Assembly: GCA_949317995.1 (NCBI GenBank)
Contig: OX439035.1
Span: forward strand, 3,648,181-3,712,180
Length of the DNA stretch: 64,000 nt
Reading direction: 5' to 3'
Source: Acholoe squamosa
Lineage: Eukaryota > Annelida > Polychaeta > Phyllodocida > Polynoidae
Shown: positions 24,911 to 61,300 of the stretch, one piece after another
Layout: every line of letters starts with the position of its first letter
How positions within the stretch are numbered: position 1 is the first letter of the stretch
Program-made: the position numbers and the translations under genes
Notes under the pieces: generated by a model
The model's database searches: none
Seen by the model: the letters and a program-made list of their open reading frames with translations, nothing else
Told to the model about the DNA's origin: nothing

Positions 24911-25140
24911 GCCTGTACTAGTACTACTGGACTGGAGTGGGCTCACGCGACCTGTCAAAATCGTGAGACTGCTCAGCCTCACAAAACTTCCTAACACGTC
25001 CAAAATATTACATGAATTCGTAGATAAGGGTTTTTCTTCTTTAACTGACACAAATTAATATATCTGGAATAAGATTTACCTGTTGTAAACGATGAAATTT
25101 CTTGATGTCCATGAACGCTCTGGCCGGTTTGTTTACGCTC

Positions 25141-25294
25141 TGACGTTGCCGACCGGAATTCCTTTTCACTCGCGCATGCGTCACAATTGGCAATCCCACT
25201 ATTGAATACCCCTCTGGTGAGTAAATCCAGAACTCCTGCTGAAGCTGGTTTTCGGTCTGTGGCACTCTCACTATCAGGACCAGCAAAAAGCAGC
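25141..25294 (+). promoter_or_regulatory. PNPT1: Probable ancestral PNPT1 promoter and 5' leader, NRF1-like palindrome
   Basis: CGCGCATGCG at 25171-25180 matches the core of the NRF1 site (GCGCATGCG), a regulator typical of nuclear genes for mitochondrial proteins. An inverted CCAAT (ATTGG) follows at about 25186. Both lie about 110-125 bp upstream of the ATG at 25295. A strong donor-like CTG|GTGAGTAA sits at 25216|25217, between promoter and ATG. No transcript evidence is available; this is inference from motif and position. Confidence 0.45.
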
Positions 25295-25336
25295 ATGGCG
25301 GCCACAGTCCATGTGTTTTCTCCTACTTCTATTTCC
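25295..25336 (+). pseudogene. PNPT1: PNPT1 exon 1, upstream fragment cut off by the retrotransposon
   Basis: ATG in good context (AGCATGG) followed by 14 codons, [14 protein letters not shown], ending exactly where the retrotransposon repeat B2 begins. If the 6.3 kb insert is removed, the next codon is the ATG at 31646 and the frame continues into [12 protein letters not shown], giving a presequence of about the same length as the vertebrate one, which also begins MAA. In the present sequence this frame runs into B2 and stops at 25367-25369 after ten foreign codons. The alternative is that this is chance non-coding sequence. The exact frame match and the crossover at a shared CCAT argue against that. 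Confidence 0.75.
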
Positions 25337-28300
25337 ATTAACCCATCCCTTCCCAGTAACGAGTTCTAGTTCATTTGGGTGAATAAAATTTATTTATAAA
25401 TTTTATGAGTATTTAAAATGGAATATCACATGAGATTTTAAATCACATCACAGAACATCGCACAATGGTAAAACTGATGAAACATAGCAGTAAAAGAATA
25501 AATATGTAGGCACCTATGTGGTTGCTTACTGAGTCCAGATAAAAGCACTGTCCTGTGTGGTCAGACCAACTATGACGATATACTCACAATATACTAGGTG
25601 TGGGTGGGTGGGAAGAAAGTTCTGTTCTCCTCAGGTCGTCTGGAAGTAAACTGACCGGTGTTATGAATATTTTGAATCACCCGGGGAAGGTAGTTCCGGT
25701 ATCTTCCGGTTGGGTGGTCAATGACTGCGCCTGGGCCGAATACCGACCAATGCGCACACCATTAACCCATCCCTTCCCAGTAACGAGTTCTAGTTCATTT
25801 GGGTGAATAAAATTTATTTATAAATTTTATGAGTATTTAAAATGGAATATCACATGAGATTTTAAATCACATCACAGAACATCGCACAATGGTAAAACTG
25901 ATGAAACATAGCCAGGGTATATTTTGGGTTTTAATGTTGTGTGTTTGCCAGTGCATTGGTAATGGCTGAGTTTACAGAACTGTGGTTCTGTGATCTAATA
26001 TAGTCCCTGTGGGTATTTGACAACCATGCCCCATATCTCTGGACGTCCAACTCATTACATCCAGCGTCATACGCTTGAGTCGCCGCGGCGGCTCTCAGCG
26101 AATGTAGAGAGAATTTTCGGGGGGGTTGACCCAGTTCTTTCAGAATTTTTCTCCATTCCGCCTCTACTAGTGTTACCGGGATGGGGGAGGCGTCTGTGTT
26201 CATAAGGAATGGTTGTGCTGGGTCTGTCGTGGGCATTACTGTTAGTACAAGGCTTACTGCATGCACTGGGCATACTGCAGAGTCCTCTGAGCTCTGCAAT
26301 AGGACTGTTTTTTCCTGGTCGTACAGTTGCATGTTCTTTGCTGCTTTGACTCTGACTGTCACGTGATCGTCGTATAGGACCACATCCCCTCTGGTCAGAT
26401 GCCACCATGGCTTGAAGCCCCCTTTTGATGGCGGGAGGACCTCTGATTTGCGGAGAGCTGCCAGATATATAATTAAAATTGCTGTTCTTATCATTAGACC
26501 CATGAATGTATGTGGGGTGTGCATGATGACGGCCTTTAGCATAGTCATGGGTATTGCTGGTTTCTGGTTCTTTTTGATTTTCTTGTTTCGACGCAGCGCC
26601 TGCTTTGCACGAGAGACTCGTGGGTGTTGGAAAGCAGCTACGTCTGCTCCGGCCAGGATCAGGTGCTGCGTCACGTGGGACAAGTTGTTGGCAATTGTCC
26701 GCGGGTGTTGTGTAGACATTGTCATGAACTCTATGAAAGCGCATATTGACTGGTAGGTAGGTGACATGGGGTCCAGGCCCATTTCTCTTGTGAATAGGTG
26801 GTACAGGCCGGCTGCTGAATGTCTGTTCCGGTCGGTACCCTCTGCTCGCGCCTGTAGCTGCCTTGCAGCCGCTCTGGCCTGAAAGTAATTGAATGCCTCC
26901 CCTAGAGGTGAGGCCAGGTGTTAGGACATCAAAGAAATACAAACAGGAGTCTATCAGGTACAACTTGTTAATAGCTAACTGGTGGATGGCCGCCTTTCTA
27001 TCAGCACTACTTATATGGGCGCGACTAAGTGCATCTGCAACTGTGTTAGATTTTCCGGGCACATGGTCAAAGATAATGGATATGTCGAATGCGGCCTGCA
27101 TCATCCAGATTGCCCGGGCACAGTCAGTGAGTATGCGGTCCTTGCCTCTTCCAGTTCTGAACACCGTGACGGCAGCCTGATTATCACATTTTATATTTAT
27201 CACAGAGCCACGGTCTGAGGAGCCAATAAATGTGTGTAATGCAATCACAATATTTGCAGCCTCCAAATGTGTGATATTTTCCACCTTGTCCTCCAGTGGG
27301 GTGACCTGGGTGGCGTATGCCAGTTTTCCATCGGAGGCCCCAATGCCAGATCCCGAGGCATCCACATATATAGTTCTGGACGGGGGGGATGGGTCTGTGA
27401 TCATGCCTACCCCGTTCCATGAGGAGCTGAACTCCTCGAACCATCTTAGATCTGCCCTCATTTCCGCTGACACATTAAGATACTTTCCCCTCATCGACCT
27501 GAGGCTGTCTAGGAGTCTAGCCACGAAGACTCTAGCTGACTGGATACACTTCGCGACATGTAACAAGACACCTAGGAGGGACTGCAGCTGTTTCTTACTC
27601 ATTGATCGTCTCTTGGCGTAATAGCGCACTTTTCCCTGTACCTCCTGTAGCTTGTCACGTGGTACTGACACTGTCATAGATGCTGCATCAATGACCACCC
27701 CAAGCCACTGGACCGACTTGGCTGGTGGCTGCAACTTGTCTATAGCTTCTGGGAGGCCGAGTTGTTGTAGAAGCGCTCTTGCGGTGTTGTAGTCTGAGTG
27801 TGCTCTGAAATAATCAACAGAGATTATGAGCAAGTCATCTAAGTACATTCGTGAGAATATGCCTTTTGTGGCCAATATCTCCACAATTGAGTCAGCTACT
27901 GCCTGCATGTGCGAAGCACTTGCCCTGGACCCGAATGGGACACTCAAGTCCAGGTAGAACTTGTCTCTCCATACTGAGCACAGGAGTGGATAGTCTAATG
28001 GGCAGGACATAAGATTTTTATATGCACGGCTGATATCTATTGTGCTGAGGTAAGCTCCATTTCCAACCTTAGCAATGTAATCTACGGCCTCTTTAACAGT
28101 AGGGAGGCTGTGATTGCGTGTAACCCCGTTAACTGTATTCTTAAGTATATATGCATTTACAGAGGAGTCAGGTGGGTAAGTCATGTCAGAAATAATCCTG
28201 CGAGCTTCCGTGTCCCTCTTAGGTCTAGTCATAAGGGGGGACACATGGACCCATGGGTCAAATGGATTGTTATGGAATGGGCCCTTTAATGCCCCTATAC

Positions 28301-31300
28301 CAAGTTCTTTTTTCACGAATTTATCCACCTCAGCCTTGTATGCCTCTGCACTAGGGTGATTGTGGACAGCCTGTGTATCAGATATTGGGCCCATGTAGCC
28401 GATTGGGAACCCGTATTTCATGAAATCTAGGAGGACCCTTTTTTCAGGTATGTGGCCCAGGTATGCTTCCCAAGCATCCAATTTTAACTCACTTTTTACT
28501 GGGACACGAGCCGCCAAAGCGTTTGGAAGACCGGTCTGCCGTACAATATCATATAATTTGGCTAGCTCTGGGTGAGTATCAGAGAATGCGAAGTTCGGCC
28601 AGTAGTCCAGTCTATATTGTTGGAAAGCATATGGGGAAATATCAACAGTACCATCGATCACATTTGTTTCGCACATTTTTCTGATAGTGTCAAAGTTGGG
28701 GGCCGTACCTGTTTTGCTTTGGTCCTGTTGTTGGCGTTGTATGTTTGGTGGAAGTTCCGATGTGGGGTGCACATAGTCGTTCTTGTGTGCCCCTGTGTGC
28801 GGTGGTTGGTGTAGGTTGTACAAGTCATCATGAATATGAACTGCAGACCGACCATTTCCGACAATGTCCACCGCTAATTCTGTACTTTGTTGTTGTGGCG
28901 GCGAGTGATGGAGGCCGCCATGTTTGTTGTCGGTGTGCATGCTGGGAGCAACTAGACATGTTGCGGTGACGTCACCAATTCCGTGGTTCTGCAGGCGCGC
29001 GTCCTTGTATTGGTCAGCGTCTGTCTTGACGTCATGGTTCTGTGTGTGGGCGGGGCCTCGTGAGGGCGCACGTGCGTTCTTGTTTACAGACACAGAGTGG
29101 GCGGAGTTACTGTAGTACGTTATACTGTCGTGTGTATGTATGTTGCGTTCTGGCGCCTCGAGCTGGGCTGTATTTACTGAGGCGCCTGAGTACCGTTTTT
29201 TGAATGATATATTTGTTGCTGATTGTGAGCGTAGCCCTGTGATTGTTGCTGTGTGTTCGGGCGGGGGTTCTGCTGCTGGCTCCAGTGGGGCTGCTGTTGG
29301 AATCCATTATTGTACCACGTGTTATGGTGTGGTGCGTGCCGCCATGTGGCATTGTTTTCGCCTTGTGGAGGGGCATCTCTGAACTTTTGATTACAGGCCA
29401 GAACGGAATGGTTGGATTGTTTTCCTTTTCCGTAGCAGTAGAGGCAGAAATGTACCCTTCTGGCTCTGTTCTCGCCGTGGTGAGCGTTGAATGCACATCC
29501 GCGGGTTGAGTTGAAGTCCAGGCAAATCTGTTCTGATGATGTTTGGTTATTATTACCATTACCATTGCTCTGATGCACGCTACGGTTTTGCTGGTTACCC
29601 TGTTGTGTACGGCGGCCACCACCAGTGAATGAGATTTCAACACGTGAATTTTGAATAGCCTGCAAATCTGACCATTTATACGTGCCCTTCTCAACGTCAT
29701 CAAAGACACTGTCCGACCACCTGCGCACGTCGGGCCAATGGCGGGACATGGAATCCCTAGAGACGTTATTTACGTGCTTAAGGATCCACTGGCGCTCCTG
29801 TGCCGTCCAGGCACTGTCAGGGTCGTGGACAAGGCGTAACGCCGCATCCAAGTATTCCATGGGAGATAATTCATTTCTTACGTCAAGCTTTTGCTTCAGA
29901 GTATAACACGATTCACGGTCCATATACATGTATGGTTTTGGCTTGGTTTTTGCTGGTATGATGGATGTAATGAAATTGAGCTTACCATCGGCCTCCTGAA
30001 CCTGGTACCTCTCCTTTGCAAGTTGCTCCAGTATATAATCCCTTGCTCCCGGTTCCCTCCTGAGATCCGTGGGAGTGGGGATATGTGACGGATGGTTGTT
30101 GTTGTCAAGCTCTATTATCTGTTCCGGGGGCGGGGCTACCCGACTGTTGTGAAGTGCGGCCTGTCCGGGGGCAGGGCCGGGTGCTTGTCGTTGGGCCGCG
30201 GGTGGCGCCTGTGTCGCCGCGGGTGGCATGACGCTGACCGCGGGCTGTTGTGTGGCCGCGGGTGGCGTGTTGTCTGTGTGAAGTGGAGCAATCCCGGCGG
30301 GGGCTGCGGCCTCGGCGGCGGCTGCAGCGTCCTTCTTCTCCTGGCGGCGCTGGCGCTTCCTTTCCTTTCGCTGCTTCCTTGCCTGCTCTGCTAGGCACTG
30401 CTGCTCCTCGAGGCGGGCACGCTGTTCGTCAGCCATCTTGCGCTGTTCCTCCAGGTTTCTCTTCTGCTGCTCTACAAGCTCGAGGCGTTCCTTCTCAAGC
30501 TGGGCGGCATGTTGTGCCTTCTCCTTCTCTAGTCGCTCTGTATCTGCCTTGAGGCGGAGTGCCTGCTGGCGAAGGTCATGTTCATCGTGCTTTTCCTGTA
30601 CCCGTTGCTGTCGCGTCTCTTTTGCCTGGTCTACAAGAAATTTAATGTTCGCGGACATTCCGGTCATGTCAGACTGCACTCTATGTAGCTTACTCTCCAG
30701 GTCTGCGACGCGCTGCTCCAGGATGTCAGCCCTGGAGCGTGGAGAATTGTACACGGCTCCGGACTGTGACGCGCGGCTGGTATGACTGACAGCTGACCTG
30801 TTTGACACTGCCGAGTCATGGCGACTACGGGGCCTCACAGCGTGTGGCGTGTTGGGAGCAATGTGCTGTTCCCGTCGGGTGTTGGGGTATGAAATACCAT
30901 TGGTGGAGTCACTACAATCGCTTGCTTCCACCTCGAGGGAGGCCTCGAGGGCAGCTACCTCTTGGCGTATCCTATCCAATTGGCTGTTGTACTCCATTTT
31001 TTGGTTGTCGGCATCCACGCGGGCTCTATGCCTCGTGTTATGTGGTGACACACGAGACGCTGTTGGCATGTTTACCGGACCGGAGTGGAGGTAAATGTTT
31101 ATGCGGGCGATATGTATTATAATATTGCACAAACTTACTTGAAGTGTAAAATGTTCGTGTGAGGGATGGATGTGCAACAAAGGATGGATGTACCGGCTAT
31201 GGTACTTACCCCAGGGGCCGAGAAGAAAGTTCTGTTCTCCACACAATCTGAATGTCTCTAGAAGCAGACAGTAAAATGAACAGTGTGCTTCTCTAAACCA

Positions 31301-34300
31301 TACAGCACAACATCATAGACACTGACCCAGCTGTCACTTCACTCTATCCAGCTGTCAATGTTCAATGTACCATCAAACAAGAGTAAGTTTTATCCAGATT
31401 TCAAGCCAGCTTGGTAGGTAATCCACTGTGACTGTCACTGACTGTCAGAAAGGAATCTAAATCCTTGTGTTTTCAAGGAAAGCAGGTAACTTCCAGGAAG
31501 AAAGTTCTGTTCTCCTCAGGTCGTCTGGAAGTAAACTGACCGGTGTTATGAATATTTTGAATCACCCGGGGAAGGTAGTTCCGGTATCTTCCGGTTGGGT
31601 GGTCAATGACTGCGCCTGGGCCGAATACCGACCAATGCGCACACCATGGCTTTGTCGTTCTGTGGCCGGTGTTTGCGGCGGCAGATGTCGGGGAGGAGAC
31701 ATTGTGTACGTTGGACGGCGGTACGATTCACGCATCACAACCCGTGGTCTGCTGACAACGCGGGACATGAAGTTTCTGTGCCGGTCGGCCACAGGTAGGT
31801 TTAGGCCGAAATACCTGCCTGCTCACAGGCAGGATCCAAGATGTATACAAGCCTATACGTACCTATACGGCACATGGCTATTGTATTATTGACCAATGGG
31901 AGGCATCCCTGGCATAAACTGCGGAGTCGGGGGCTGAAGGTGTTAGTCATAGTGCCATCGGGGTCTAATGGCGGCCCCCAGCTGATGATAATGGCTATGT
32001 GAGCTATAGTGGCACAAACACATGGCTAGTCTGAACTAAGTACTCACTGTCAGTTCCTGGAAATTGTCCCTCCTATTCACAAACATGTAGTTTCCATGTA
32101 CATCAGCTTATATCAACTGAAACATGAGATATATCCAATAAATCTGACATGTTTTATCTTGAGCTTAGATATCACTACCTCAATGGCCTCCATTGTCAAC
32201 ATGCTGGGGATGCCACCTGGTGTTAGCCTCCTTTTGAAACATAGGGCTGTAGTATCCCGAAAGTCGGACCATCCCAGAAGTCGGCCGGAATTTTCAAATA
32301 ATTAATATGAACTTTAACCGTTTCATAATTCTACGGCGTAGGGACAGTATCATTAGGGTTGTTGTCCTTTCAAGTTCTATAAGACGAGAGGGATGTTATC
32401 ATGGTTTTTATGTTTTCAAAAAATTATTTATTTTCATTGATTTTTGTGGCCCATGAGCGATAATAGGCTTAAAACATGGATTGCGCATGCGCAGCCAACT
32501 TCTGGGATGCGCCAACTTCTGGGATACGACAGGGCTAACCAACCAAGAATAGTGTAGTCTTTTTGGCACTAGGTGGCTACACCTGGCTTCAAGATGGCCG
32601 ACAATGATTTGGAGTTAGGGAGGGAGATTTGAAAATCACCTGGATTATTAATTATTACAAGTATTTCAAGTGCTTTGTGTATTGTGAATCTTTGGATATA
32701 CATTGAGGGAAGTGTTGATGGAAGCATTGGACCTGACATAGGCACTGACGTAACTCCCGTTCGCGGTTCTGGCCGCCACAGCCACTCATAGTGTGATTAA
32801 CCCTTTGAGGGACACTTTTTACCTCGACCCTCCTCATAGATTCGGTCATTCATCTCATAGATTCGGTCATTCATAGATTCGGTCACTGCTGTGTCGGGCA
32901 AGCAGCATATAAATACCTGTCCAAAAAGAAAAGAAAGGACTTAATGTCCCAGAAACCTTGAATGTCTGAGTTCCTCGATGGCCCCCGGACGTAAAACTAA
33001 ACAAACAAACAAAAAAATCACCTATCTTCAAAAGTCGATTCTGAAGCTATTTATTGGAATATCAAGACAATTAGGGTGTCATATTAACGGGCTTGGTGAG
33101 ATCTATCACATGCATATAAGTTATCAATGATTGGTTGAGAAAAAAATAAGGGTTTGGTCAAGTGAAATTAAAGCCCAACTTTGTAGGCATTTTATTGTAT
33201 GAAGATCAAGTTGCTCATAAAAATAACTAGTTTGCACGTGTTCTACGGTTAAAAATGTTATAGAATATGCCTTAACATTTCCATTTAGACATGGACCACT
33301 ATGTTTTATAAGCAACCCCAACATCCTCACCTACAAGCTCTGAGAGGGGTAGGCTGGGACCACCTCCCACACCTCCCACCCCCCCCCCACACCCCCACTG
33401 CATCACTACTCTAGCCTAGGTCCTTCACTCCAGGGGCTACATGGTTTTTCTTCTGTAGTACTGACCAGTAGGTCCTTTTAGTGAACATCTTAAGAGAGGA
33501 CTGACTAGCAGGATTTCTCTATGAAGTAGAGGGGAGGCCAGTACACAAACAGGGGACTTCTTCTGAGAGGGAGGGTGATGCAGAGGCAGAGGACTTCTTA
33601 ACAGCACATGGGGGCTAGGTGTGAACCCATCTAGTCAGGTGAATACCCCACCAGGCCAAGTGACTAAGATAAACACTATATTTTGCTTTTCAAAACTCAT
33701 GATCCTTTGCTGACCAAGGATATTCCATAACTAAAGATATTAAATTTTTTTCAACGGAAGTAGTCATTTATCTAATTTCGCAATATTGACCTTTGACCTT
33801 AAAATGACCTTGACCTTAGACAAGGTCACCATATGCAAGGTCTTTTGGTGAGCTTAGACCCATTCTTTATCTCAAATTTCTAGTCTTGATATATCATGAG
33901 ATGTGTCAATTTTACTCCAATCTCATAACATTGACCTTAGAATGACCTTGACCTTGGGCAAGGTCACCACATGCCTGTTCACACTAATCACTGAAAAAGC
34001 CTTCAACTATGTTTTATATCAAGTTTCTAGCTTTAGTTTTTCATAGGAAGTAGTCATTTACCTAATTTCACAACATTGACCTTTGACCTTAAAATGACCT
34101 TGACCTTGTCCAAGGTCACCACATGCACAATTACATCCGCCTCGTGATGACCTTCGATCTACTTTTTATATCATAATTCTAGCTGTAATAGTTCATGAGA
34201 AATGGGCATTTAACTGATTAAATGACTCCTGATGCCAGCTAGAATGATCACGAAATCTGGATCACAATTAAACTCTTAACTATGGTTAATTGTGGCAGAA

Positions 34301-37300: not shown

Positions 37301-40300
37301 TTTCAATCAAGTGTAACATGGAAAGTGTCATAGATATGCATGATTAATGAAGATAGGTGATAGATGTGGGATGGACCCTGGTTTAAAAGTTGGGGCCATC
37401 AGTCTCATTTTCTAGGGCCATCGGTCCCACTTGGGGCCATGGGTCCCCGGGGCCATCGGTCTCTAGGGCCATGGGTCCCGGTACCGTTCCTTGGTACTGT
37501 GAGTCTGACTCGAGAGTCAGTCAGTCACGCAATCACTGTCACTGTTCAGCCACTGTAGTGATTGTTCAGTGTCAGTGATATAAGGGAGTGGTCAGTATTT
37601 ATCAACAGGGGAGGGGGGCGTAAAAGGTTTTGACCCTTCTTGAGGGGGGGGGGGCGAAATATTTACTGCCTTAAAGAGGGGCGCAAATTCGGGGGCGCAA
37701 AAATCTTGACTAAAATCGACGCTACCAAGGGGGGGGGCATAAAAAATGTCTGCACATCCGCATGAAAACCCACCACCACCCCCCTGTTCAAGGCTGTTGA
37801 TAATGACCACTCTGATAATGATTACTCATACACTCTTCAAGCACAGTGAGTGCCGTTAAGAGTGCCAGTAGTTGTTGTTTAATGTCAGACCAATATTTTT
37901 ATTCTTTACGGAAGTCAATAATGGAAACGTGTTTGGAGTGTTGGTCCCTGAAAACCCACTTTACTTGGGCTTGGCCGCTGTGCATCCCAGGGCCAGGCAT
38001 TCTCACAGGCTTGAGGCTTGGTCAGGGACCAACAGGCCACCCTTAAAAATATGTCCGTTTCCTGTCCACAGGGTGGGATTTTTCAGACCCATGAGGGAGG
38101 GAGGAAAAAGTTTTTTTTTAGGAAAATATTTTTATTTATTATGAACGTCGAAAGGGGGACAGCATGAATTACATTTTAAGATTTTGTGATTGGAAACCTA
38201 GTTTCTTGTGCTGAAGGCGAAAAAAATAAATCTTTTTTCCATTCTCACAAAAAATTTCACCAGGCCTCTGGGCAGAAAACGAACATTTTTAAGGGTGGCC
38301 ACACTAAAAAAACACATTTGCGTCCACAGATGTGGAAATTTACAATCACTGTCAATTTTGTTATTTAGAATTTTAAAAAAAATCTACCTGTAGTACCTAT
38401 CCTTTGTTTGGTCCTGTTACCCGATTGATTCTTTTTGTAGGCCCAGGCCTATACCTAGCGTAGGTCCATTATTAACGATTTATGCTAGCCAACTAAAATT
38501 ATTCTAGTTCTAGTTCTATGGCAATACTATTGGTTAGATACTGTGTGTCTTTGCTTATTTGATTTTGCTTCATCGATTTTGCTCTTCATCCGCAGACACT
38601 TGAAGATCAAAACAGGTCACCTTGCGCGGTTTGCTGATGGGTGTGCTGTTGCACAGGTAAAAGAAATTGTCACCCTGCCAAGAGTCACAAATTTTAAAAG
38701 TTTATCAATACATAATTAGGCCACACCAAATAAAAAAAATTGGTCTATGGATTTTCATTTTGAGAATATGGTGCGGGAGGGCGAAATTTTTATTTTTATT
38801 TTCTAGAAATTAATTATTGTCTATGGATTCTGAACATCATAAATATGGAGAGGGCGATTTTTTTTATTTTTTTTTGCCATTGCATATTTATGCCTATCCA
38901 ATGAGGGGTCTGCCATTCCTGTACCTTTATTATTAATCATATATTTATTGCTTGATCAAAAAAAAAAATGAAAATCCCTGCAAATGAGGCGGGCGGGATC
39001 CATAGACATGTTATTTTTCAAATAAAAATAAAATTTTAATTTCTGAAAAACAGGGGCGGGAAATCCATAGACCAATCTTTTAATTTGGTGTGGCCTTACC
39101 GTAATCTCCCGCGTATAAGACGCACCTCACGTATAAGACCCACCCTGAGTTGAAGAAAAACCTGTAAGGCTTATCTAAGGGCAAATTTTTGAAGGTTCAG
39201 TACTGTTCTATAGTAAAAATACCTTGCCTATAAGACGCACCCAGACTTTGAGATGGCTGTACAAGGAGCTAGGAGCTTCTGATTCACGTATAAGATGCGT
39301 CTTATACACGGGAGATTACGGTAGTGTGCTTCTAATGTGATCTGAATTCATCATGTCCTTCAGTTAGGCCAAAAAAAAATAAATTGTTTCAGGTAACCCG
39401 ACCCTACCTAGCAAAACACGGCCGACCCTAACTTTTTCTCATTTTTGAAGAAATCATAGGTTTTAGGCAAGTTTTCAGTCAATTTAGTTGTCCATGAGTC
39501 GATTAGACTTGTTGGTGAGTGACTGTGACTTGTTGCAAGTCTTTGTGCCAGTTTAAAAAAAATTTACAAAATTAAAAAAAAAGAAAAGAAATCTGTCCTA
39601 CCCTACCTAATTTTTTTCAGCATGTTACCTGAAATAAATGATTAATTTTTTTTGGCCTTTTTGCTCAAAGTGCGCCAATATGGGAACTGCAATAAAACAA
39701 ATAAAGCACCATAATTTACAGAGACCTAATAGATTTGATGTTCGCCAAAGCATTAATCTCTCGGACATATTGATGTTCCGTGTACACACAGATCGGTGAC
39801 TTGTCGGTGATGGTGACGGCTGTGAGTCGAGAACAGACATCGTCTCTGCACTTCCTACCTCTAACAGTGAGTATACATGGGGGTGGGGGAGGGGAGAATG
39901 AATCCAAACTCAATCTTCCATTAGCAATTTGATTCAATGATCAGTCAGGTCTAGAAAAAAATGATGGAAAAAAATACCATGTTCAAGTAAGATTTGTAGG
40001 TAGGAAAGCCTTTTTAAAGAATTTTTTAAGGCGGGCTGTAAATCTGTGTGTCCTTAGGTATGCAATTTTGACTCACAGGTTTCCCAAATATACTTCCCAT
40101 GTCACAATAACTGCCAAAAAATCTTTTTTCTTCATAATGTCCATAAAAAACTTTAATTAGGGTAGATAGCGTTACCTGAACACTCATTTTAGGCCTCTTG
40201 TATAATTCGAAAGAAATTGGATTACCCTAATTGGGTGCCATTATAGTCGGCTTATTCAGTAGTACTCTTTGACCAAATATCCTATTCACAAATTCCATAT

Positions 40301-43300
40301 CACTAAAACTTCACAGGTAGATTACAGACAGAAGGCTGCAGCAGCTGGACGGATACCGACAAACTACCTACGGAGGGAACTAGGGGCATCAGATAAGGAA
40401 ATACTGACAAGCCGTGTGATAGGTAGATATACAACGATACGCTATAAGCCGAATCTGAGTTTACAGTTGAAGATTTGGCTTAGGCCACTTAAAATCGATT
40501 ATCAGCTTTGCAGACACCGCCGCACCCTTCAAAGAGGGCCGCATGGACCCTTTTTTATCTGCTTTTTTAAGAAAAAAGGGCCGCATCCATGAAAATGTCC
40601 AAGAAAATAACATGAAAATATACCAATGAATTCACTGTAAACAAAAGCCCTTTTGGTATTGATTTATAGAAAATTATGAACGGATGTGAAGTAAAAAATT
40701 AAAAAGGGCCGCCCTCATTGCACAGAAATGGTATAAAAAATAAAATAAAAAGCCTCCCGCCCTCACTACTAGTTTTCAAAAAGTGTCTGCAAAGCTGATA
40801 ATCAATTTTAAGCGGCCTTATAGGAGAAGCTTCAACGTCATTTCCTCTATATTCTGTTATAAAAAAAACCTGACCTATAAGCCGAATTTGAGTTTCAGAG
40901 AAAAGATGCGGCTTATATGAAAAATAAATAACAAAATAAATTGGGCTTATAGGTGAGGTTTTACGGTAAGTCTATTAGCTACCTTAAAATCTTTGAAACT
41001 TGCAGAGTGTACTATTCTGTTGTAGATCGTTCAATCCGGCCGCTCTTCCCCGCGGGCTTCCACTCAGAGACACAGGTTGGTACTTACTTACTCCATGCCG
41101 TAATAATGCAGGAGTGCATCATGCCCATTGGTCGGCATGATGCACCAATGAAGTGCTGGTCTAACTGCCCGCCTGCACTTCATTGGAGCATCATGCTGAC
41201 CCTCCAAGAGTTCAAATCGCAAATCAAGGCCTTGATACATGAATGTAGCCCTGGTGAGTTACTCACCTTGGTGAGTATCTCACCCTGGTGAGTTACTCAC
41301 CCTGGTAAGTTACTCACCAGGGTGAGTAACTCACCAAGCTGTCATACATCCTGACGACCGATGCACTAAATTCGCGCTAGAATGCATTTTTCTCTCGCCA
41401 AATTGGCGAAAATTGTCTACTTTTCTTTCGCCAATTTAAATGCGAAATCGCCAGATAATTTTCTTTCTGGTCTTGATACATAAGGGCACTTTAATATAAA
41501 CGGTGTTACATAGTCAGATAGAATTCAAAATGTGTTATGTACATGATATAGGGTTCCCAGTCTAACGATTCTTTGTCTAATTACTTGTCAATTGGGATTT
41601 TACTGTTACCGTAAACTCCCGCGTATAAGACGCATTGCGCGTATAGGACGCACCCCAAACTCAGCAGGATCATTTTCGCGTATAAGACGCACATTTTAAG
41701 GGTGATTTTTGTCAAACCAGTACTGTTCTATAGTAAAATTACCCCTCGTATAAGACGCACCCCCAATTTCAGTGCATCCTATAAGACCCACAAGGCATTT
41801 GTTTGGCGTAGAGGAAGGTCTTATACGCGGGAGTTTACGGTAATAGCATTGAACCGTTAACTAGACTTATAATAAAAAAAAGTCATGCCTAGGTCTGGCC
41901 ATTTTATTTTCACCAGCAGGGTGACATCTGGTGAAAATTAGAGCTGTTTTTCCAAAAGATTTCCGCCAGTTTTACCTTTCTATCGTCCCAGGCGAATGGC
42001 TAGCGCAAGCGTAGACATTGCACATGATGCATTGATGCGGTATTAATACTTCATATCTATTAGTTAGTGAATTAGTGATTATCATGTCATGATTTTCTAA
42101 TAATTTTATAGAATAAACAGATTCATTACCTTTTGTAGCTGGTCTGCAATCTGTTGGCGGTGGACGGAGTCAACGATCCTGAAGTTACAAGTATAAACGC
42201 CGGTAAGTGACATTTTACCGCTTTTTTTATGCACCACACTGCACTGTGGAGTAAGTCACCACAGCTACTACATGTATCCCTGCTTCCTACAGGGTAAATA
42301 ACAGTGTTTATGGCTATGTAATGCTGCATGCTTGCATCAAATGCCGACCTCTGAAGCCCATTTAAATACTTGACATAGTTCGTAAATATGTTTCATTGCA
42401 CTGGCCCTATTTACATTGAATATGGTTTGGAGATGGTTTGTTATGTTTGCAATATATTCTCCCCTCACAGCGTCCGCGGCCCTGTGCCTGTCTGACATTC
42501 CGTGGAATGGACCCGTAGGTAAGAACCTTAGTGTAATATAGTCTGTAGCTTGCCTATAAAGACGCATACTGAGAAGAAGGAAAAATTGTTTAAGATTATC
42601 TTGGGGTTGATATTTATTGGATTCTTTCACTTGTACATTTCTCAAGCTATCTTAAAATCATCAATTACGTATTAAAGATACAGTATTCGTTAATCTTAAA
42701 TAGATAAATTTTCAACTTATTCAAACCTTCCTAAAAAATAGTAAACATGCGCCTCCTTGTCTTTCATAATACAAAAACGTTCATGTTTCTAGGCGCAGTG
42801 CGTGTTGGTCTGATTGATGGAGATGTCATCATTAATCCGACGCGACGAGAGATGGTGAACAGCACGTTAAACCTGGTCGTCAGTGCTACTAGCGGAAAGA
42901 AAGTCGGTAAGTATGATTCTTGAGACCATGTGCTCTAGTTATGCTGTAATTTCTTCCAAATAGATAACATACAGATGTTTAAACGATTAACCCCTAGGTG
43001 CCCAAGCGCGCCTTAAAGCGCGGTTTTGGGCTTAAATGGGGCTTAAATAAATGTATATTGAAGGAAACTATCATCCAAGTACTTCTACTGGTCCAATCTG
43101 CAAAGTTAGACCCTCTAAAGAACGGCCATGACCTCCCCATCACAATACAACCATCCATTTTTCTCTATCACCAATATACCTAACACAGGGAGTCAAAATT
43201 TGAAAATGATTCATTAGAGGGCCACCCTCCAGGGGGCTAAGACCAGACATGACACAATTATTACGCTAGATCATATACATCCAATGTCCCATACTCCCAT

Positions 43301-46300: not shown

Positions 46301-49300
46301 TTTTAAAAACATAACAATAAAATCATTCTAGTAGCATAAATGTCAATGAAACGATTTGCGTTCGTCTCAGAGTTCGACATTGCGAGTGTGTGTCACTTTG
46401 AAACAAACATGGCGGATGTTAAAGAAATCATAATAATATATTATAGTTTATGAAGAAGAAGATGGATCCATGCAAACCAGGCCTAATAACAATGATTTGC
46501 GAAAATTTGTTACGGATAGGACAACATACCTAGCCAGTTGACGGCAAAATCCAAAATGGCGGGTGCACAATACGTATGGAGTACGTCTCTTCTTTGTTTG
46601 GGATATTTTTTAATATTAACAACTACTACAGCTCTATATAATTGTTGGTAAGTGTTCCGCATTGCTGTCACTATAGTGCCAAAATGGCCAGACCTGTACT
46701 TTCCAAGTTACTTGCGAGTTCAATAGCTTCAACACTCGTTATATTAAGAATATACTGGTATTTAACTGCTTAAAAACAAGCCTCATGTACATTATACACA
46801 AGGGTCTATGGTCCAAACTTACATTATTTATCATTATTTTCTCCATGGCAGTCTGACAGAAACACGGATACGTGATGTCTTCACCGACCACACGCACCAC
46901 AAGGTACGCTATATTATACTAAAACCGATGTAAGAGTCTTAAAGACCCTGCGTATAAGCTGCACCTTTAAGGGTTAATAGATTACCGTAAAACCCCGGCT
47001 ATAAGTCGATTTTTAAAAATTATTTTATTTTCATGTAAGTCGAATTTATTGCCCAAAAGGGGTTGACTTATAGCTGGGGTTTTGCTTTTTTGAATAATCT
47101 TTTGGTATAAGTTGATTTGAAATTAAAAGCTGGGGGTAATCACCAATAAAAGCGTGACTGAGTACATTATGTGATCTTTTTCACACAGGTATCTCGAGAT
47201 AGGGCGCAGTTTGGGATACGAGACGACGTCCTACTAAAACTCAAAGGTGAGCACCACATGCCAGTTTTTGGTACCTTGGGCCCAAAATAACCTGCCAAGA
47301 ATATTTTATAAACTTAGATATTTTCGCGCTGTACATATTTTCGCGGAAGTTAAAAATTCACGACATCGTGAATATTTGTCCCTTCTAGGTTGTCATATTC
47401 ACATAAAAATAGATACTATAAGTTGACCTCATCTATAAGTTGACCTCATCTATAAGTTGACCTTATCTATATGTTGACCTCATCTATAAGTTGACCCACT
47501 CAAGTCCCTGATCCTTACCAAACTGTAATTTTCCAACTTTTTACAATGAGTTTTTGAACTTTTTTTCGTGTATAGAAAATGCTAATTATACATGTAAGAA
47601 AAGAGGATGTTTTGAAATCAGTTATAAAGGTGATTAAATACGTTAAAAATGTTATATCATCGCTTTGGAGAAGTTAAGCTTAAAGAATCTATTGGGACCA
47701 CTTGCGTTCAGATATTCAAAACCTCACCTATAAGTCGACCCCCTAACTTGGGAGCCAAAAATTCCACTTTTACAAAAGGAAAAAAAAACAGAAAAAAACA
47801 AGGAAAAAAAACGACTTATAGATGAGGTTTTCCATTATACATTTTCACCAGCAGACACTAATTATAAGGTACCGTAAATTCCCGGTCACAAGCCGGCCCC
47901 GGTCATAAGCCGGGGGGTGAGTTCAGGAAAAAAATAAAAGCCGGTTTTTGGGTCAAATTTTTACCATTTTCTCTTTAATCTTTAGTCATAAGCCGGGGGG
48001 CAGTTTGGGAAAAAAATAGAAGCCGGTTTGGGCCCAAAATAGAAAAAAAAAACCGGCTTATGACCGGGGATTTACGGTACTGGTTTCGGCAGAGGTGGAT
48101 GGGGGAGGGAGTCTTGGATCCTGTTCTGAAAAGCTTGTGGATTATTATTGATTTTTGAAAATTGGAAATTCGCGAATTTAGATACACGCGAAAATGCATT
48201 TCAATGCGAATATTAATACACGCGAAAATATCTACGTTTACAGTATACGGTATTTATTCATTCCTATGTAAAGAGCGTTAGTGGTAGGTCTGCAATTAAT
48301 TTCCTCAGGGTATATTTTGCCCACAGTTAAGTTGGATTTAAGGAATCAATACTCCCACAGAGTTTTTGGCAAAAGAATATTTGGCCTAAAAAAAAAAAGT
48401 GTTCAGGTAATGTTACCTACCCTTATTTTTTGGCCCTACCCTAACTTTTTTTATGGGCATTTCGGGGGGGGGGGAATCTGATATTTTGGCACTTATCAAG
48501 ACATGAAAATTTTTTTCAATGATCTTGCACATCAAATTCACGTGGCATAGGCACGCCTAGAAAAAAAATTCCCCGTCCTACCTACCCTGTTTTTTTATGG
48601 CTTAAAGAGAGCTCTACGAAATATTAACATCAGCATCTTATGCACCTTCCCATTTTTCTGTGATACAGAGAACTTCCCGGACACCCGTGAGGACGTCCTG
48701 AGCCGAGAGCTGAACGCTTACATACGTCAAGTCTTTAGGGACCTCATCCTGGACACCGGAGTCAGGTAGCATAATGATAAATAGCTTCTATAACAAAACT
48801 TCATTATCTATTTCATTACTTTGACCTTTTGCTTGTCTTAAAAGCATGATAGTTCTTTGTATTAAGTCGCTTGAAGCCAGTGATTTTGTCTTTTTTTATT
48901 ACTTTATTTTTGTGTTAAAAATCAAAAGAAAACTTTGGATCAATAATTTGGATGTAGGATGACTATTTCTAGAAGATATATATCAGAGAATGCTGAGATT
49001 TGAATATTCATTGAGGTAGATGACTGAAAAGTAAACATCACAAACTGGGGTAAATGCTGGAAACCTGACTGGGCTGTGTAAATCCGCGAGATGAGGCACA
49101 GGATTTGCAGTCGGAGAAGACTATACGCTGGAGGCGGGAGACCTTGTGGGGCAGCCATTGCTTGATCTGGTACTGGTTGTGATAACCACTGATAACAACC
49201 AGCATGATGGGGACCAGTTGTTATATAACATACCCAAAACGTCTGCAGTTAATAGAGAGAATTGTCTGATTTGTTGATAATGTATTCCGCTTACTTCCTA

Positions 49301-52300
49301 TTATAGGTGTGATGGGCGTGGGGTGGCCGACCTCCGACCAATCAGCTGTCAGGTTAACATGTACTCGCCTCTACACGGGTCGGCCATGTTCCAACGTGGA
49401 CAAACACAGGTATGTGCATCATGGATGCTGATACAGGAGTGCATCATTCCCAATGGTAGGCATGATGCACCAATGAAGTAATGGCGACTGCTCACCAGCA
49501 CCTCATTAACCGCACAGCATTTTTTACCTGTCAACTAACATTAGGCTGGCGGGAGCATTTTTTTAACATGTGATTGAAAATTATTATGCCCCAGCTGATA
49601 GACCTGATATTCACATTTACTAAACATACTGTAGGGAGTTGATGAGAGTGATTGCAGCCTCACCGCTTAATCCCTTCTGACAGATGTCCACCTCCACATG
49701 TCCCATACACCCCCAGGGCTTCCCTAGCCCACTTAAAAGGGTCTATATCTCCTCTTTACTATCCCCTCAGGATGTGTGTGGTGCACATATGCGCGGGCAC
49801 TGACACATTCCTCTGTGAAATTGTGTAATGTAGTTCTCGCCATGAATATGACCTTAGCTGTCAAAATGGCGTTAAACATCTATTACTCACTCACTCACTC
49901 CCATACACCCCTACTGTGGCGCAGGTCTACCATCTAGTTATTGATAAAGCTACCAATGTGCCAAGAACTTCCCAGCTAAAATAATACATTATCTTACTTC
50001 CAAATAATATTTTTAACATTTTATAATATTGGACCATAATACAGAGCCATAGAGAGATGTTGTGAAATATTGTACAATGTTTTGTAATGTGTTTTGTTGA
50101 CATTGATATGCGTGTTGTATCATGTCCAGCTGGTGGGGCCCTCTACTGATATTTCATTGCAGGGGGAATAGGCCCCAAACAAGCCCCCCAAACCTTTTCT
50201 GACGATAGGGTCCTTTGATTTGCTTTCAAATGCATTATTTTAAGCTTCTTTGGGTCTACTCCTGGTAATTTCGTTGTTTTTTTTCCCAAATGATAATTTA
50301 TATATAAAAATCAACTTTCAAAAAATCAAAATATAAAGTGCCACTCCTAAAAAGTAAAGAAAGATTTCAGCAACATTTCAGACATCCTGGTGGGTAGGTG
50401 TATTCAATGTGGTTCAAAGGAAAAAAGAATCTCATTAAAATATGGATTTGCCTTCAAGTAATGCACATTCTCCCAAACGTCAGTTTGCAGGGAGCACACA
50501 GAAATATGACTTGGAACAGGAGTAAAATACCAAGGTATGATAACATTGCCCTTAGATTACCATATGTGGTACGGTAACCTACCCCTAGCAGGAGATACCG
50601 TAATCTCCCGTGTATAAGACGCATCTTATACATGAATCAGAAGCTCCTAGCACCTTGTACAGCCATCTCAAAGTCTGGGTGCGTCTTATAGGCGAGGTAT
50701 TTTTACTATAGAACAGTACTGAACCTTCAAAAAATTGCCCTTAGATGAGCCTTACAGGTTTTTCTTCAACTCAGGGTGCGTCTTATAATGAGGTGCGTCT
50801 TATACGCGGGAGATTACGGTACATATGTATATACCTTTCGCTTCCAAGTGACCAGTGGTTCCTAGCCTGTATGAGGGGATGAACAAAAGTGCTGTTTTAC
50901 ATAGCGTCAGATAAGGGTACCGGGCACGGCGTGACCCTCCGACCAGCCTACTAACATGGCCAATGAACGTAGGGGTTGACGAGGGATCCCTTCACAATTG
51001 GTCATGTTAAAATGTGTACAGAAGCCATCCGCCCATAAATCATAGCAGAATATGAGGGGAAACGATGTGGCATAAGGTTAGAATGATTATTTTTACCAAA
51101 GGTAACATAGGTTAGCTGTTATTCTCCATTAAAGTTTCAAATCCTGGCTGACAGATCGCCTTTTGTTCAATTCGGTCAGTCTCGGCGAGTGTAGAAGCCA
51201 CTGCAATTTCAGTCATTTTGGTGGTGCGAATAAGTTTTAAAAAAGATGGAAATGTTGTATATAAGAGGCAGATATACTTAATGAATTTGTAGTGCCATTA
51301 AAGGAGGAGATGTAGGGGTCTTGTAGGAAAAGGTATTTCATTACAAAATTTTCTAAATTTTGAGAAATTGTCAATATTGTACAGACTCAGTTGGTTGGCA
51401 GCCATAAGATGCTTTTTGCCTCCAATGGTAAAGGTATATGATGTTGATCCATGTATCAGCTTTCCCGCATTTTTTGGGCAATGTGGTGCGAATAGCACAG
51501 TTTTGGCGAATAGTGACTTGGTGGTGCAAATAATCTGGGTAAGGTTAATTACAGGTTAGTGGAGGAGGTGTAGCCTCTGTTACTCCATTTACTGATAGTA
51601 TACGTCCTTATACAAGGGTTAATTACAGGTTAGTGGAGGAGGTGTAGCCTCTGTTACTCCATTTACTGATAGTATACGTCCTTATACAAGGGTTAATTAC
51701 AGGTTAGTGGAGGAGGTGTAGCCTCTGTTACTCCATTTACTGATAGTATACGTCCTTATACAAGGGTTAATTACAGGTTAGTGGAGGAGGTGTAGCCTCT
51801 GTTACTCCATTTACTGATAGTATACGTCCTTATACAAGGGTTAATTACAGGTTAGTGGAGGAGGTGTAGCCTCTGTTACTCCATTTACTGATAGTATACG
51901 TCCTTATACAAGGGTTAATTACAGGTTAGTGGAGGAGGTGTAGTCTCTGTTACTCCATTTACTGATAGTATACGTCCTTATACAAGGGTTAATTACAGGT
52001 TAGTGGAGGAGGTGTAGCCTCTGTTACTCCATTTACTGATAGTTTAGGTCCTTATACAAGGGTTAATTACAGGTTAGTGGAGGAGGTGTAGCCTCTGTTA
52101 CTCCATTTACTGATAGTATACGTCCTTATACAAGGGTTAATTACAGGTTAGTGGAGAAGGTGTAGCCTCTGTTACTCCATTTACTGATAGTATACGTCCT
52201 TATACAAGGGTTAATTACAGGTTAGTGGAGGAGGTGTAGTCTCTGTTACTCCATTTACTGATAGTTTAGGTCCTTATACAAGGGTTAATTACAGGTTAGT

Positions 52301-55300: not shown

Positions 55301-58300
55301 GCAGACGAGACATGGCGGGCAGTGCCGGGGAGGAAGACCGACCTGGCAAAGAGGTGTTGACAGAAAATGCTCGCAGGGACCCCCGCCCAAGCAGATCGTT
55401 GCAGGCAGTGTGCCAACTATGTCTGCGCAGTTATTAGCGCTACATCCTTTATTTCATGCGAATAACTTCTTCCCATAGAGTTAACGTTGAACCGCCGATC
55501 CGCACACCCCCAGTGGCGTAATATGCGCCGATCCACCACTGTGGCTGATCATCCTCGTTTTGGGTGCATGTAAACATTCAAAATGGCAGATTATGGCTCC
55601 TACGGTGAGCAACAGTAACAGATTTTGTTAATTTTCATTGAATTAAACCTTCTAAAAGCATAAAATAAATAGAGAACTGAACTCCCTGGTGTACTCGGTG
55701 GCTGATCCGCTCGTGAGGATGACACCCACCTCGTGGTGTATTGGCCACCTCGTACACCATGGTCTCTCTCTTTCTATTTGGTGCATCATGTCGACCTTCT
55801 GGGGGTGTATCAAACCCGGGTATATATGATGCAGAGGTAAACACTGTTGCTGGCCTTATGACCATTGGCCCGTAGTTGGGCCCACAACCTTTTCAAGAAT
55901 TACCTGCAGGGGGACCCTCAAGAGTATAGTGTAGGGGAACGTGACTATGTGAGTCCCCGTGCCCAGGGTGGCCGACCTGAAGAGGCGGGTCACTGGGTAG
56001 TCACATGTCCCCTGTCGGTATCACACCGATCCAGGCGTGGGTGGAAGGCAGAAAACGTTGTACGGGGAAGTAGCTCAGTGGTAGAGCAATTGTCTGAAGG
56101 CTGAGAGGTCCCGGGTTCGAATCCCGGTTTCCCTAAAGGTTTTGCCGACCCCTACAATAGTACCGTAATCTCCGGCGTATAAGGCGAATCCCACCTATAA
56201 AGATGCACCTAGAGTGTTAGTAAATTGTCAAAAAATTGTAAACTTTGTGGATTTTGAAAATTCAAAAAGCTATGTGTAGCTAGCCCCCCCCCCCCGGATC
56301 CTACCTGACCCCCTCTGTCATATTATGACTTGCGGGGAGTGTAACATAACGGATCGGGAGAACTAAAACCCCATGTATAAAGCGTGTCTTATATGCAAGA
56401 GATTACGGTAGTATAGAAAAACTTTAACGAAAACTCTGTTGCCATGTCATACACATGTTCACAAAATTTTCAAAGGCTAAGTTTGAGTCCTGATTATGCC
56501 CATGACTGGAAAAGTTTAACGTCTCCCCTTTCGTGTGTACAAATACACATTGTCATATTAACTCCATTAAATACTGTTTGTTTACACCTTCCCTATATGG
56601 TAACTAGAGTAGCACATGTCCTTTTTTATCGTCAGGTGATGAGCACGGTGACGTTTGATTCTCCGGCCTCCGCAGCTAAAGTAGACACCATGACCGCCAT
56701 CGCTGAGTGAGTCACTCTTAACAAGAAAAACGCTTAAATTGAATTTTGAAAACAAAAATGTAAAATATACTCTCTAATATTGCACCAAGATCATAATAAA
56801 AACAATTAAATTTTTGGGGAAAATGTTATGAATATACGCCATAAGTATAAGTTGATATCCGGTGCATCACTGACAGTAACTAGCTCTGCGTGGAGATTTC
56901 CTGGTTTTGTACAGAGATTTCTATATGGAATCAGGGTTATTATGGGTTTTATCGGCCAGCGTGTAGAATCTCTGCTATGTTGCATGAGTTGTCAATAATC
57001 TTATTATTTTCATGTTTTTTTTTTTATTGCAGTGGGGTCAAGGAAAAGAACTTCTTCCTGCATTATGAGGTAAATATTTTTCATTATTTGATGAGGTAAA
57101 TTAAGCAAACTTGTCGCTCTCCCAGGTCTACTATTTGAAATCCCATTTGATCCTATTTTCTTATGGAAAATATTTTTTTGCCGGAAGGTGGTAGGGTGCC
57201 TGCTATAGGGTGAGCAGGATACAAGGGTTAAATTCATGTATCATGACCACAGAATGTGAAAGTGCATCAATGATTGCATCACAATGTACCCGGTACCCAC
57301 TTTGTAGCGCTGAATGTCTTTCTACTCCATCAGTTCCCACCGTATGCCACAAACGAGACGGGTCGACCTGGGGCCATTGGACGCCGCGAACTTGGACATG
57401 GTACGTAGACAAATACCATAAGATTCAGTTCACCATATGTACCCACAAAGTGTGAGGCTTACTTATATATGGGCCAGAAATAAACAGAGCTTGAGAAAAA
57501 TGAAAGAAAATTGCTTCTTTTAAAAAATCAGAGCATTTGAAAATTTATGCTCTGTCCCTGTACAAGATACAAACAGGATTTCAGATCAACGCCATCTTAG
57601 GCGGATATTGCCGGCTGTCCCGTTGTTTTTTGTATACCCCAAAACCCTGCTCACAATCTGACCTCAGTCATAAGCCGGGATGTTGAGAAAATGCTCTAAG
57701 CTAATTCATGGCCTACTTTGCTGTTTTCTCTGTAATCTATTTCAATAAAATCCCACCTATGAGGCAGTGGTAGACTTTAAGCATATCTTAGAAACTGATT
57801 CTGGGCCTAAAAATTCCAAAATGAAATTGGCTTAAGACCAGGGTTTTATGAGACTATATGTACTTACACATTGTTGATACAGGTGCGTTAGCAGAGAAGG
57901 GTTTACGTCCTGTGGTACCGTCAGACTTCCCCTTCACAATACGACTTACTGCGGAAGTCCTTGAGTCCAACGGTTCATCGTCGATGGCGTCTGTGTGCAG
58001 TGGGAGTCTGGCCCTCATGGATGCCGGTAAGTCACTTCATGAATAGTGACACTATTTCTATATAGAGAAAAGTCAATCATTTGTTGTTGTTTTTCTCACT
58101 CCTCGAGGCTATCTTCCGAGTTTTAGAAAAGCTATTTTCCGGTAAGAGGTTGTTGACATTTGGCCCGAAAAGGTGACTCATGAATTTGTCGGATCTCTGA
58201 ATATCTCCCCAAATAAGTTATCTAATTCCTTACTCAATGCAAAAAAAAAAATGAAATGAAATCCCTGAAAGCATAATTTTCAGATGGTTTCTAGGTTTGT

Positions 58301-61300
58301 CTAAAGCTAATCTTGTACCTCTAGGGGTACCTCTGAGTGAGGGCGCGGCTGGCATCGCTATCGGTCTCGTCTCACGAACCGACCCTGAATCAGGTGAACT
58401 GACAGACTACAAGATCATCACAGACCTACTCGTAAGGATTAAACTGCAGCTTTTATTTATTTTAGACAGTGCAAGTGAGATCTGTCCATCTTAAGTGGTC
58501 AATTACTAAATATGTATGGGTAAACTACACATAGAATGTCCTCATTAACCCTTTAAAGGCTGTTGTGCCGTGCCCGCTGGTCGCATGAATGCATCACTGT
58601 ACTGGTGTATCATGCAGACGTTGTTGGAGAATATCACTATTAGATCTCCACCATGATGCATTTCTTTTTGATTAGACTACGGCATTTATTCACATAGGTG
58701 ATTTTCTATGTCTGCATAAAAACTGGTATATATACCGTAATCTCCCGTGTATAAGGCGCGTCTTATACGGGGGGTTTAGTTCTCATTGGATCCACAAGGG
58801 GGACACCAAGACCTTTCTTTTGATATCTTACATGCCCCCTGGGTCAAATTAGGACAAAATGGGGCCCAGGAGGGCCAAAGGTGGCCCAAGCTACCCATAG
58901 GTTTTTGAATTTTGAAAATTCATTCAGTAGAACCAAAGTTATGAATTTTTCATTTTTTTGAGAATTTTCCAAAACTCTAGGTGCGCCTTATACGCGGGCT
59001 GCGCTTTATACGCGGGAGATTACGGTAGTTGGATTGCTGGCATATGGTTGTAGGGTACATGAAATACGTGTGATGTTCCTGTTACAGATTATAGAAACAT
59101 AAGAAAAAATAAAATGTGATACTTGTTTAAAGTGGGTTAGGATATGGCCGTAATTTGCCCTTGCCAACCGGTTAGTTACGGTTGGTGAAGGTTCTGATAC
59201 AGAGATGTAAGTTGTCAGGGAATTCCCTGAAAATAGGGATTTCAAAAATCTTTAGATTGAGTCAAAATAGGGATATGTAAGGTCTTCAGGGCCAGATTTG
59301 ATTCTCATATTCATAACAGTCAGTGTGAATATCCATGTTCATCAAAATGAAGAGAAATATGTGTTCTTGCCCTAATGATAACCCCCTGCTATACACATAC
59401 CCAGGCCTGTGTTGGCTGCTTTAACCAGTGACTCCACTGTGGAACAGGAAGGCCCCCTGGTGTAAGCAGAGAGACTGAACTGGGCAGGGGAAGGCCTGGA
59501 CAGGGGATCTCAGGGCATACTCTACTATGGGAGGTGAAGGGAATGCTGCTATCTGATTGGTCTAAAATACTCAGTCTCAAGACTAGTCTACAGTTGCCCT
59601 CCATACAGCCATTTGGGGAAACCCCTTCAGAAGTGACATGTGAAACTCACACCCCAATCACCATATACTACTCAATGTCTGAACACCACACTCACCCTCA
59701 GCCACCCTTAATTCTGAAGCATTATAGGTTGAAAGAGATTAGGGGTAGGGTTGGTTGGGGAGGGGGGTATACTAAACTCATAGTTCCATATACATGTATT
59801 GTGGGGAAGGACATTAATTGTATACATGCACATTGCATATATAGACTTTAACACCCCCCCCCACCCCCCACCCCCACCCCCACCCTGCGATAATAGCTTT
59901 TCAGGGATTTTCTCAATACCCGACTTACATCTCTGCTGATAAAACTGCGAGATGAAATGATGAGAGGACGGTACAGGCTGCCATTTACTGCCCAAGGCTG
60001 GAGGGGGCAGCGGTAGGAAAAGCAAAGGGGAAGGAAAAAAGATAGAGATGCCCTATCCCATCATTATGTTATTGACTACACGTCAATCACATACTTATAT
60101 ATACATAGACCGCTGCACAAAATCACATTGAAACTAAGAGAGATTCTGACAGACATAGGAACAAAGAGGGAAATTTGGCCCATACTCTGTCTCTGTACAA
60201 ATTGGTATTGGTGTATATGTTTTTGGTATATAATATAGTTGAAGGTAGCCCATAGGCCATGTATATGGTACAGTTAGCATTTACACCTTAGAGACAGAGA
60301 ATACTGTAATCTCCCGCGTATAAGGCGCAGCTCACGTATAAGGCGCACCCCCAACTCAGAGAATGCAAGTCCACATATAAGGCGCACCTCTAAGAGCATA
60401 TTTTTGTTATTTAGTACTGTTCTATATTAAAAATACCCCCCCTATAAGGCGCACCCCAAACTCAAGGCAATTTTCCTCCCACGTTTAAGACCCAGCAGCC
60501 TTTTGTTTGGCCTATAAGACGCGCCTTATATGCGGGAGATTACGGTAGCCTCCGTTCTGGGGTGGTCACAGGTCAGCAGCAAAGAACAATAGGGGATTAA
60601 GGTATTTCTTCAAGCCTGCATGCACCAGTGGTCATTAACCCCCTCAGTGCCACATAGCAGCAGTAAGATTATTAACCCTACAAGGGCATTGAACATAGAA
60701 CATAGGACTCAATCACACGTAGACCTAAGGCCTGGACTTAACCATTTTAAAATTCATCAGGAGAACAAGCTTGACTTAAGAAGAAGCCAAAAGCAATGCC
60801 GAATAGATGACTGGAGAGAAAGTAGCTACAGGTATGGGAATGATTGAAGTGGTTGTTGTGAATGCAGCCCCACTGTCTTATTGACCAGGCTTCGACTCAT
60901 GCATCATGGCATTAGACAGTGACTTGTTAAAAGTAATGTGCAGTTAGCAGGTTGATATTATTTCTGTGACAGGGGATAGCAGTTAGCAGGTTGATATTAT
61001 TTCTGTGACAGGGGATAGCAGTTAGCAGGTTGATATTATTTCTGTGACAGGGGATAGCAGTTAGCAGGTTGATATTATTTCTGTGACAGGGGATAGAGGA
61101 CTATTTAGGAGACATGGACTTTAAGGTGGCGGGTACCAAGTCGGGGATTACAGCGCTACAGGCGGATGTCAAACTACCCGGTCTGCCACTAGGGGTCGTC
61201 ATGGACGCCATACAACACGCTACAGGTCGGTCTGAGTTTATGTTTATGGAATTAAAGAAATTTTCCTCACTGGAAAAATGGATGAACCGTCCACACCTCA

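Follow-up and report, generated by a model that had tools for sequence, protein, structure and literature searches.

Ngaro retroelements are described from zebrafish, sea urchin, fungi and Cafeteria as elements of about 6 kb which encode a reverse transcriptase/RNase H (RT/RNase H) and a tyrosine recombinase, and whose open reading frames (ORFs) and repeats follow the order A1-ORFs-B1-A2-B2; split direct repeats are given as the Ngaro layout (PMC4157794, PMC9210276). PAT, an element of the DIRS group, likewise combines split direct repeats with a tyrosine recombinase (PMC4157794). A methyltransferase domain is present in elements of the DIRS group. An SGNH hydrolase is reported for amphibian Ngaro elements (PMC9210276). 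For Cafeteria, insertion of Ngaro types 1 and 2a into endogenous virophages is described (PMC8547959), with virophage DNA as the target and ORF1 implicated. Here, we analysed a window of 64,000 nt on contig OX439035.1 of Acholoe squamosa (genome size 1.48 Gb), in which a Ngaro-type element splits the 5′ end of PNPT1 exon 1 (Table 1).

Assigned by layout and domains, the element is a Ngaro-type retroelement, of a known kind and in an unusual placement. Its minus-strand order of repeat B, ORFs, repeat A, repeat B and repeat A corresponds to the A1-ORFs-B1-A2-B2 arrangement of split direct repeats. Pfam searches revealed a reverse transcriptase (RVT_1, E=1.3e-9, 38.5 bits with a cut-off of 29.6), and the recombinase ORF contains HSLR followed by a later Tyr, as in the HxxR/Tyr pattern. 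Two domain scores weigh against the assignment: the RNase H match is weak (RVT_3, E=0.006, 16.9 bits, under the cut-off of 21.6) and the recombinase match lies just under its cut-off (Phage_integrase, E=1.2e-5, 25.6 bits compared to 27.1). At E values up to 1, no Pfam match to a methyltransferase domain was obtained in the three ORFs, in line with other Ngaro elements and unlike the DIRS group, nor any match to an SGNH hydrolase, unlike amphibian Ngaro. An earlier sequence-only reading of the window had proposed a Ngaro-like retrotransposon, which is borne out by the split repeats and the RT and tyrosine-recombinase ORFs on the minus strand of 25336-31644. It had also described two identical copies of each 152-bp repeat; both pairs are indeed 100% identical, but the repeats measure 154 and 152 bp.

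Ngaro insertion typically occurs without target duplication. The junctions were compared at 37 sites, window included, which came from among the matches listed in genome searches (19 longer stretches, 14 short-flank sites with extensions, three later sites and the window). On the left, the pattern flank-CAT-TAACCC was present in 32 of the 32 ends found with a search motif that started after CAT and hence did not impose it. A 33rd left end (L107) came from a motif that includes CAT; L022, L029, L103 and L105 yielded none. On the right, CACAC was followed by a variable triplet in the 35 ends (CAT in 12, AAT in 4, CAA in 3, others in the remainder); L030 and L041 gave no right end, and at L028 and L029, which have two each, the outer one was used. 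The middle base of the target triplet was A in 23 of 28 sites with both flanks. Fetched DNA provided paralogous empty sites for L017 (AAT) and L032/L046 (AGG), in each of which the triplet is present once, and for L034/L048 (CAT), which aligns with a 1-nt gap. As all these left ends carry CAT, right triplets vary and empty paralogues hold the triplet once, the element supplies CAT at the left, the target's own triplet remains at the right and nothing is duplicated. Insertion without target duplication was thus seen directly at three sister sites, one with the 1-nt gap; the shortness of the empty-site alignments (48, 45 and 33 columns) counts against the rule.

Applied to PNPT1, this rule assigns the last triplet of the outer 152-bp repeat, CAT at 31645-31647, to the target, and the resulting empty site is the same as that obtained by excision of 25337-31647. 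CCAT is shared at the crossover because the target triplet CAT is preceded there by C. The proposal that CCAT is common to the crossover and the element ends, and that no target duplication was left, agrees with the sister junctions and the empty paralogues. This family differs from the Ngaro elements introduced above by its explicit junction rule with a CAT core and by the CpG-rich setting described below. Two further sites deserve mention. At L025 (1077-9801), two Ngaro copies lie head to tail with a common CACAC-CAT-TAACCC junction, an apparent insertion of the element into its own core. At L038/L080, the last 100 bases of the left flank are repeated on the other side, 333 bp beyond the element, so that the insertion either fell within a local duplication or gave rise to one.

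The window insertion is recent, as had been suspected from its identical repeats: the 5583-bp interior shows 3 differences from L014 and 5 from L016. Among the 19 longer loci, the stop-to-stop ORF set of 712, 1079 and 329 codons is unchanged in 6, and the last two ORFs are kept in 12. An exact right-end pattern has 26 occurrences across the genome, in a count of ends with a fourth flanking base other than T.

The interrupted gene, which has a role in mitochondrial RNA processing, was identified as PNPT1 because the window contains four more exon matches to TIGR03591. Joining 25335 to 31645 yields a single open frame, and the exon 1 donor at 31795 connects in frame with the acceptor before 38596 to give a PNPase-like N-terminus, which identifies the frame on the right side of the element as the N-terminus of PNPT1. 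The two ATGs at 25295 and 31646 are present in their frames as the sequence-only reading had them, and its claim that excision restores one open exon held, with the reading frame continuing into exon 2. Genome-wide, TIGR03591 gave seven matches, namely the four window exons and three single matches elsewhere (positions 614-687 on C11, E=5.5e-11, and at C1:104.9M, E=1.6e-6; positions 306-376 on C4, E=7e-4). No second PNPT1 was seen in the genome by this search, though C4 may carry a fragment of one, and comparison of the PNPT1 leader with solved structures gave no PNPase match. An empty PNPT1 site is absent from the assembly, which may carry one haplotype only: the query made of the joined flanks matched only as two halves, both at this locus on C1. 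An empty allele would be expected to read ..TATTTCCATGGCTTTG..

We assign a probability of about 0.85 to the insertion and its mechanism as proposed here. A full-length Ngaro-type element has recently integrated into the 5′ portion of PNPT1 exon 1, in antisense orientation to the gene. The substrate, we infer, was a circular DNA copy with the repeat junction ..CACAC-CAT-TAACCC.., which the tyrosine recombinase would have joined to the genomic CAT in ..TATTTC-CAT-GGCTTTG.. Of the two CAT copies, that of the element would stay on the left and that of the target on the right, so that no duplication would arise. The insertion separated the 5′ flank, with an optional leader of 14 codons, from the remainder of exon 1 but kept the in-frame ATG at 31646, whose context TTTCCATGG became CACACCATGG (T to A at -3). 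PNPT1 could then be read from this ATG if a transcript arrives there, either by starting in the element end or by splicing from 25216 to 31520.

Table 1. Features of the PNPT1 locus and the inserted element (positions in the 64,000-nt window).
Feature	Position	Strand	Evidence or remarks
Ngaro-type tyrosine-recombinase retroelement, 6309 bp	25336..31644	-	repeats, Pfam, sister-copy junction rule, empty sites
154-bp repeat, outer copy (element 3′ end)	25335..25488	.	CAT core 25336-25338
154-bp repeat, inner copy	25759..25912	.	100% identical to 25335-25488
152-bp repeat, inner copy	25611..25762	.	overlaps next repeat at CCAT (internal junction)
152-bp repeat, outer copy (element 5′ end)	31496..31647	.	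100% identical to 25611-25762
Tyrosine recombinase ORF	25931..26782	-	Phage_integrase; 329 codons stop to stop
RT/RNase H ORF, other frame, overlapping the recombinase ORF	26067..29093	-	RVT_1, RVT_3
ORF1, presumed Gag-like from its position	29174..31246	-	without convincing Pfam match
Left part of split open frame	25295..25335	+	ATG context A at -3 and G at +4; possibly coding
Remainder of PNPT1 exon 1	31645..31794	+	ATG 31646 in CACACCATGG; donor GT 31795
PNPT1 exon 2	38596..38656	+	donor GT 38657; in-frame GT-AG join
PNPT1 exon match	40314..40430	+	TIGR03591 positions 51-89
PNPT1 exon match	49296..49424	+	TIGR03591 positions 308-350
PNPT1 exon match	57882..58040	+	TIGR03591 positions 400-454
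PNPT1 exon match	61081..61230	+	TIGR03591 positions 477-527
Predicted 5′ splice site ctg/GTGAGTAA, left of element	25217..25224	+	score 10.21, top 0.38% of 3989 GT sites
Predicted 3′ splice site TTCTGTTCTCCTCAG/G, terminal repeat	31505..31520	+	score 12.24; inner copy 25635 the same
AATAAA on PNPT1 strand, just within element	25382..25387	+	another at 25497

An assembly chimera, in which the element was misjoined into PNPT1, is highly improbable, as both junctions follow the sister-copy rule, the flanks rejoin in frame and each flank adjoins the element at one place only. The position of the insertion relative to the native start codon is a closer matter. The element does split the 5′ portion of PNPT1 exon 1, but the view that it interrupts coding sequence there does not hold to the same degree: when the 200-bp left flank was randomised with a first-order Markov model, 22% of the versions had an in-frame ATG 14 or more codons upstream with the frame open (32% had any in-frame upstream ATG), so that the 14-codon left frame is not beyond chance, which weighs against a coding role. 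Nearly an even chance is given to an insertion in the 5′ untranslated region (UTR), with ATG 31646 as the native start, the protein untouched and the upstream codons fortuitous. The leader contains seven arginines, all of them encoded right of the element. Its exact alignment to human PNPT1 is an assumption. From MALSF to VPVGHR there are 44 residues, which compares with a human mitochondrial leader of residues 1-45 behind a 5′ UTR of 21 nt (PMC8836086), so the insertion may be located just before the start codon, in the 5′ UTR. The upstream start would give 58 residues, and the suggestion that the restored exon matches vertebrates in length found no support in that form. The upstream ATG has in its favour a better context (A at -3, G at +4) than ATG 31646, which has T at -3 in the empty site; ribosomes scanning the message would also reach the upstream one first, if it is transcribed.

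The consequences for expression were judged from predicted signals. Splicing from 25216 to 31520 would strip the element except for 125 bases and leave ATG 31646 in CACACCATGG. The donor used, at 25217, scored 10.21 compared to 10.14 for the exon-1 donor, and the acceptors at 31520, 126 bases before ATG 31646, and 25635 are the two best of the 3808 plus-strand AG sites in the window. Such a bypass via ATG 31646, with the element spliced out of the message or transcription starting in the element end, is rather unlikely in our estimate. Several observations speak against it: the matrices behind the splice-site scores are approximate, the identical inner acceptor at 25635 is nearer to the donor, further strong plus-strand acceptors and donors occur within the element, three out-of-frame ATGs (31548, 31606, 31635) precede ATG 31646 in the predicted leader, and AATAAA occurs twice within the element on the PNPT1 strand (25382, 25497). 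Because of these extra ATGs, AATAAA motifs and competing sites the spliced message could fail, and native transcripts may stop in the element owing to the two AATAAA. A null allele, whose native-start transcripts end in the element and whose carrier lives on an intact second allele outside the assembly, is a serious candidate, though we rate it below even odds. It draws on the same AATAAA motifs and out-of-frame ATGs, on the youth of the element and on the embryonic lethality of Pnpt1 loss in mouse (PMC8836086). Conversely, right of the element the ATG, the frame and the leader peptide are all intact, predicted splice sites able to remove the element are present, and the empty allele is missing from the assembly, even if this may represent a single haplotype.

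The sister copies of the element share a CpG-rich setting. Mean CpG observed/expected at 36 sister sites was 0.70 within 300 bp compared to 0.50 at 500-1000 bp, and it was higher near than far in 28 of them (one-sided Wilcoxon p=4.6e-5); an earlier version with 27 sites and 250 bp gave 20/27 higher near and p=8e-4. Mainly on account of CpG, these data suggest a gene-start preference of the Ngaro family, with CpG-rich local repeats as an alternative cause of the bias. First exons were inspected by eye, with up to four open frames of at least 75 aa per site and without a control set. Homology-supported first exons were found near two of the 36 sites: one is MCCC2-like, its presumed ATG following the insertion by 87 bp (without Pfam match; carboxylase beta subunits matched in the PDB, with E=7e-7 at best), and the other is that of PSMD1/RPN2, with 323 bp between the insertion and the presumed ATG (RPN2_N, E=7e-26). 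Five other near-site frames (two at L033, one each at L044, L017 and L018) had no significant Pfam match, and for one of these five no PDB match was found either. A gene-start preference derived from exons alone was rejected as not significant, because with an assumed 30,000 genes chance would place a start codon within 325 bp of about 0.5 of the 36 sites. Transcription-factor motifs, counted at the 36 sites within 300 bp (19.6 kb) and at 400-1000 bp (38.5 kb), gave no convincing support and some contrary counts (near vs far: NRF1 0 vs 1, ETS 1 vs 4, ETS core 7 vs 7, CRE 14 vs 23, YY1 9 vs 8). By eye, the insertions at L033/L047 and L044/L058 lie between two divergent first-exon-like frames in a bidirectional-promoter-like arrangement, with PSMD1 on one side at L044.

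Repeats also surround exon 1 of PNPT1. The left flank is repeat-derived to about 25207, a point against the proposed reading: sequence at 25140-25207 recurs at ten further genomic places, and 24735-24910 is part of a many-copy family (at least 40 matches). A promoter based on CCGGAA at 25153 and an inverted CCAAT at 25186 was dropped because these regions are repeats, and with it a presumed NRF1-like site left of the element. About 285 bp around exon 1 looks unique. Ends of a repeat family occur on both sides of exon 1 as an inverted pair (24713-24735 and 31803-31825), one being located 8 bp beyond the exon-1 donor; a single transposon holding exon 1 was discarded, as the 23-mer has 665 exact matches in the genome. 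Another inverted pair of segments, 12730-12816 and 25108-25194, is 87% identical. Its core has nine matches outside the window, among which three pairs on opposite strands are separated by about 11, 13 and 36 kb, and the two segments could possibly be the ends of a large transposon beside PNPT1.

A literature search found no published Ngaro insertion at PNPT1, no report of this insertion or of a CpG or start preference was seen among titles and abstract openings on Ngaro and DIRS, and we found little in print on the insertion sites of tyrosine-recombinase retroelements. The CpG-rich setting of the sister sites is a new observation on an element of known type. Some three dozen readable insertions, the empty paralogues and the three-base core give a direct view of the recombination step. 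Non-random insertion, as suggested here, is also described for the Cafeteria Ngaro elements (PMC8547959); the target suggested for the present family is host DNA that is rich in CpG and in some cases close to gene starts. Should the bias towards CpG and gene starts hold, it would add a further case of targeted Ngaro integration to that of the Cafeteria virophages. It seems improbable that the family targets CpG-rich, start-proximal DNA and is tolerated by being spliced out through the very strong antisense acceptor of its terminal repeat. If true, an antisense insert in the 5′ UTR would be removed by splicing with the host ATG left in good context, and PNPT1 would be one case among several insertions of this kind at start sites. 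PNPT1 offers a clean test case, an insertion at the start codon of a gene essential in mouse which is either spliced out or not.

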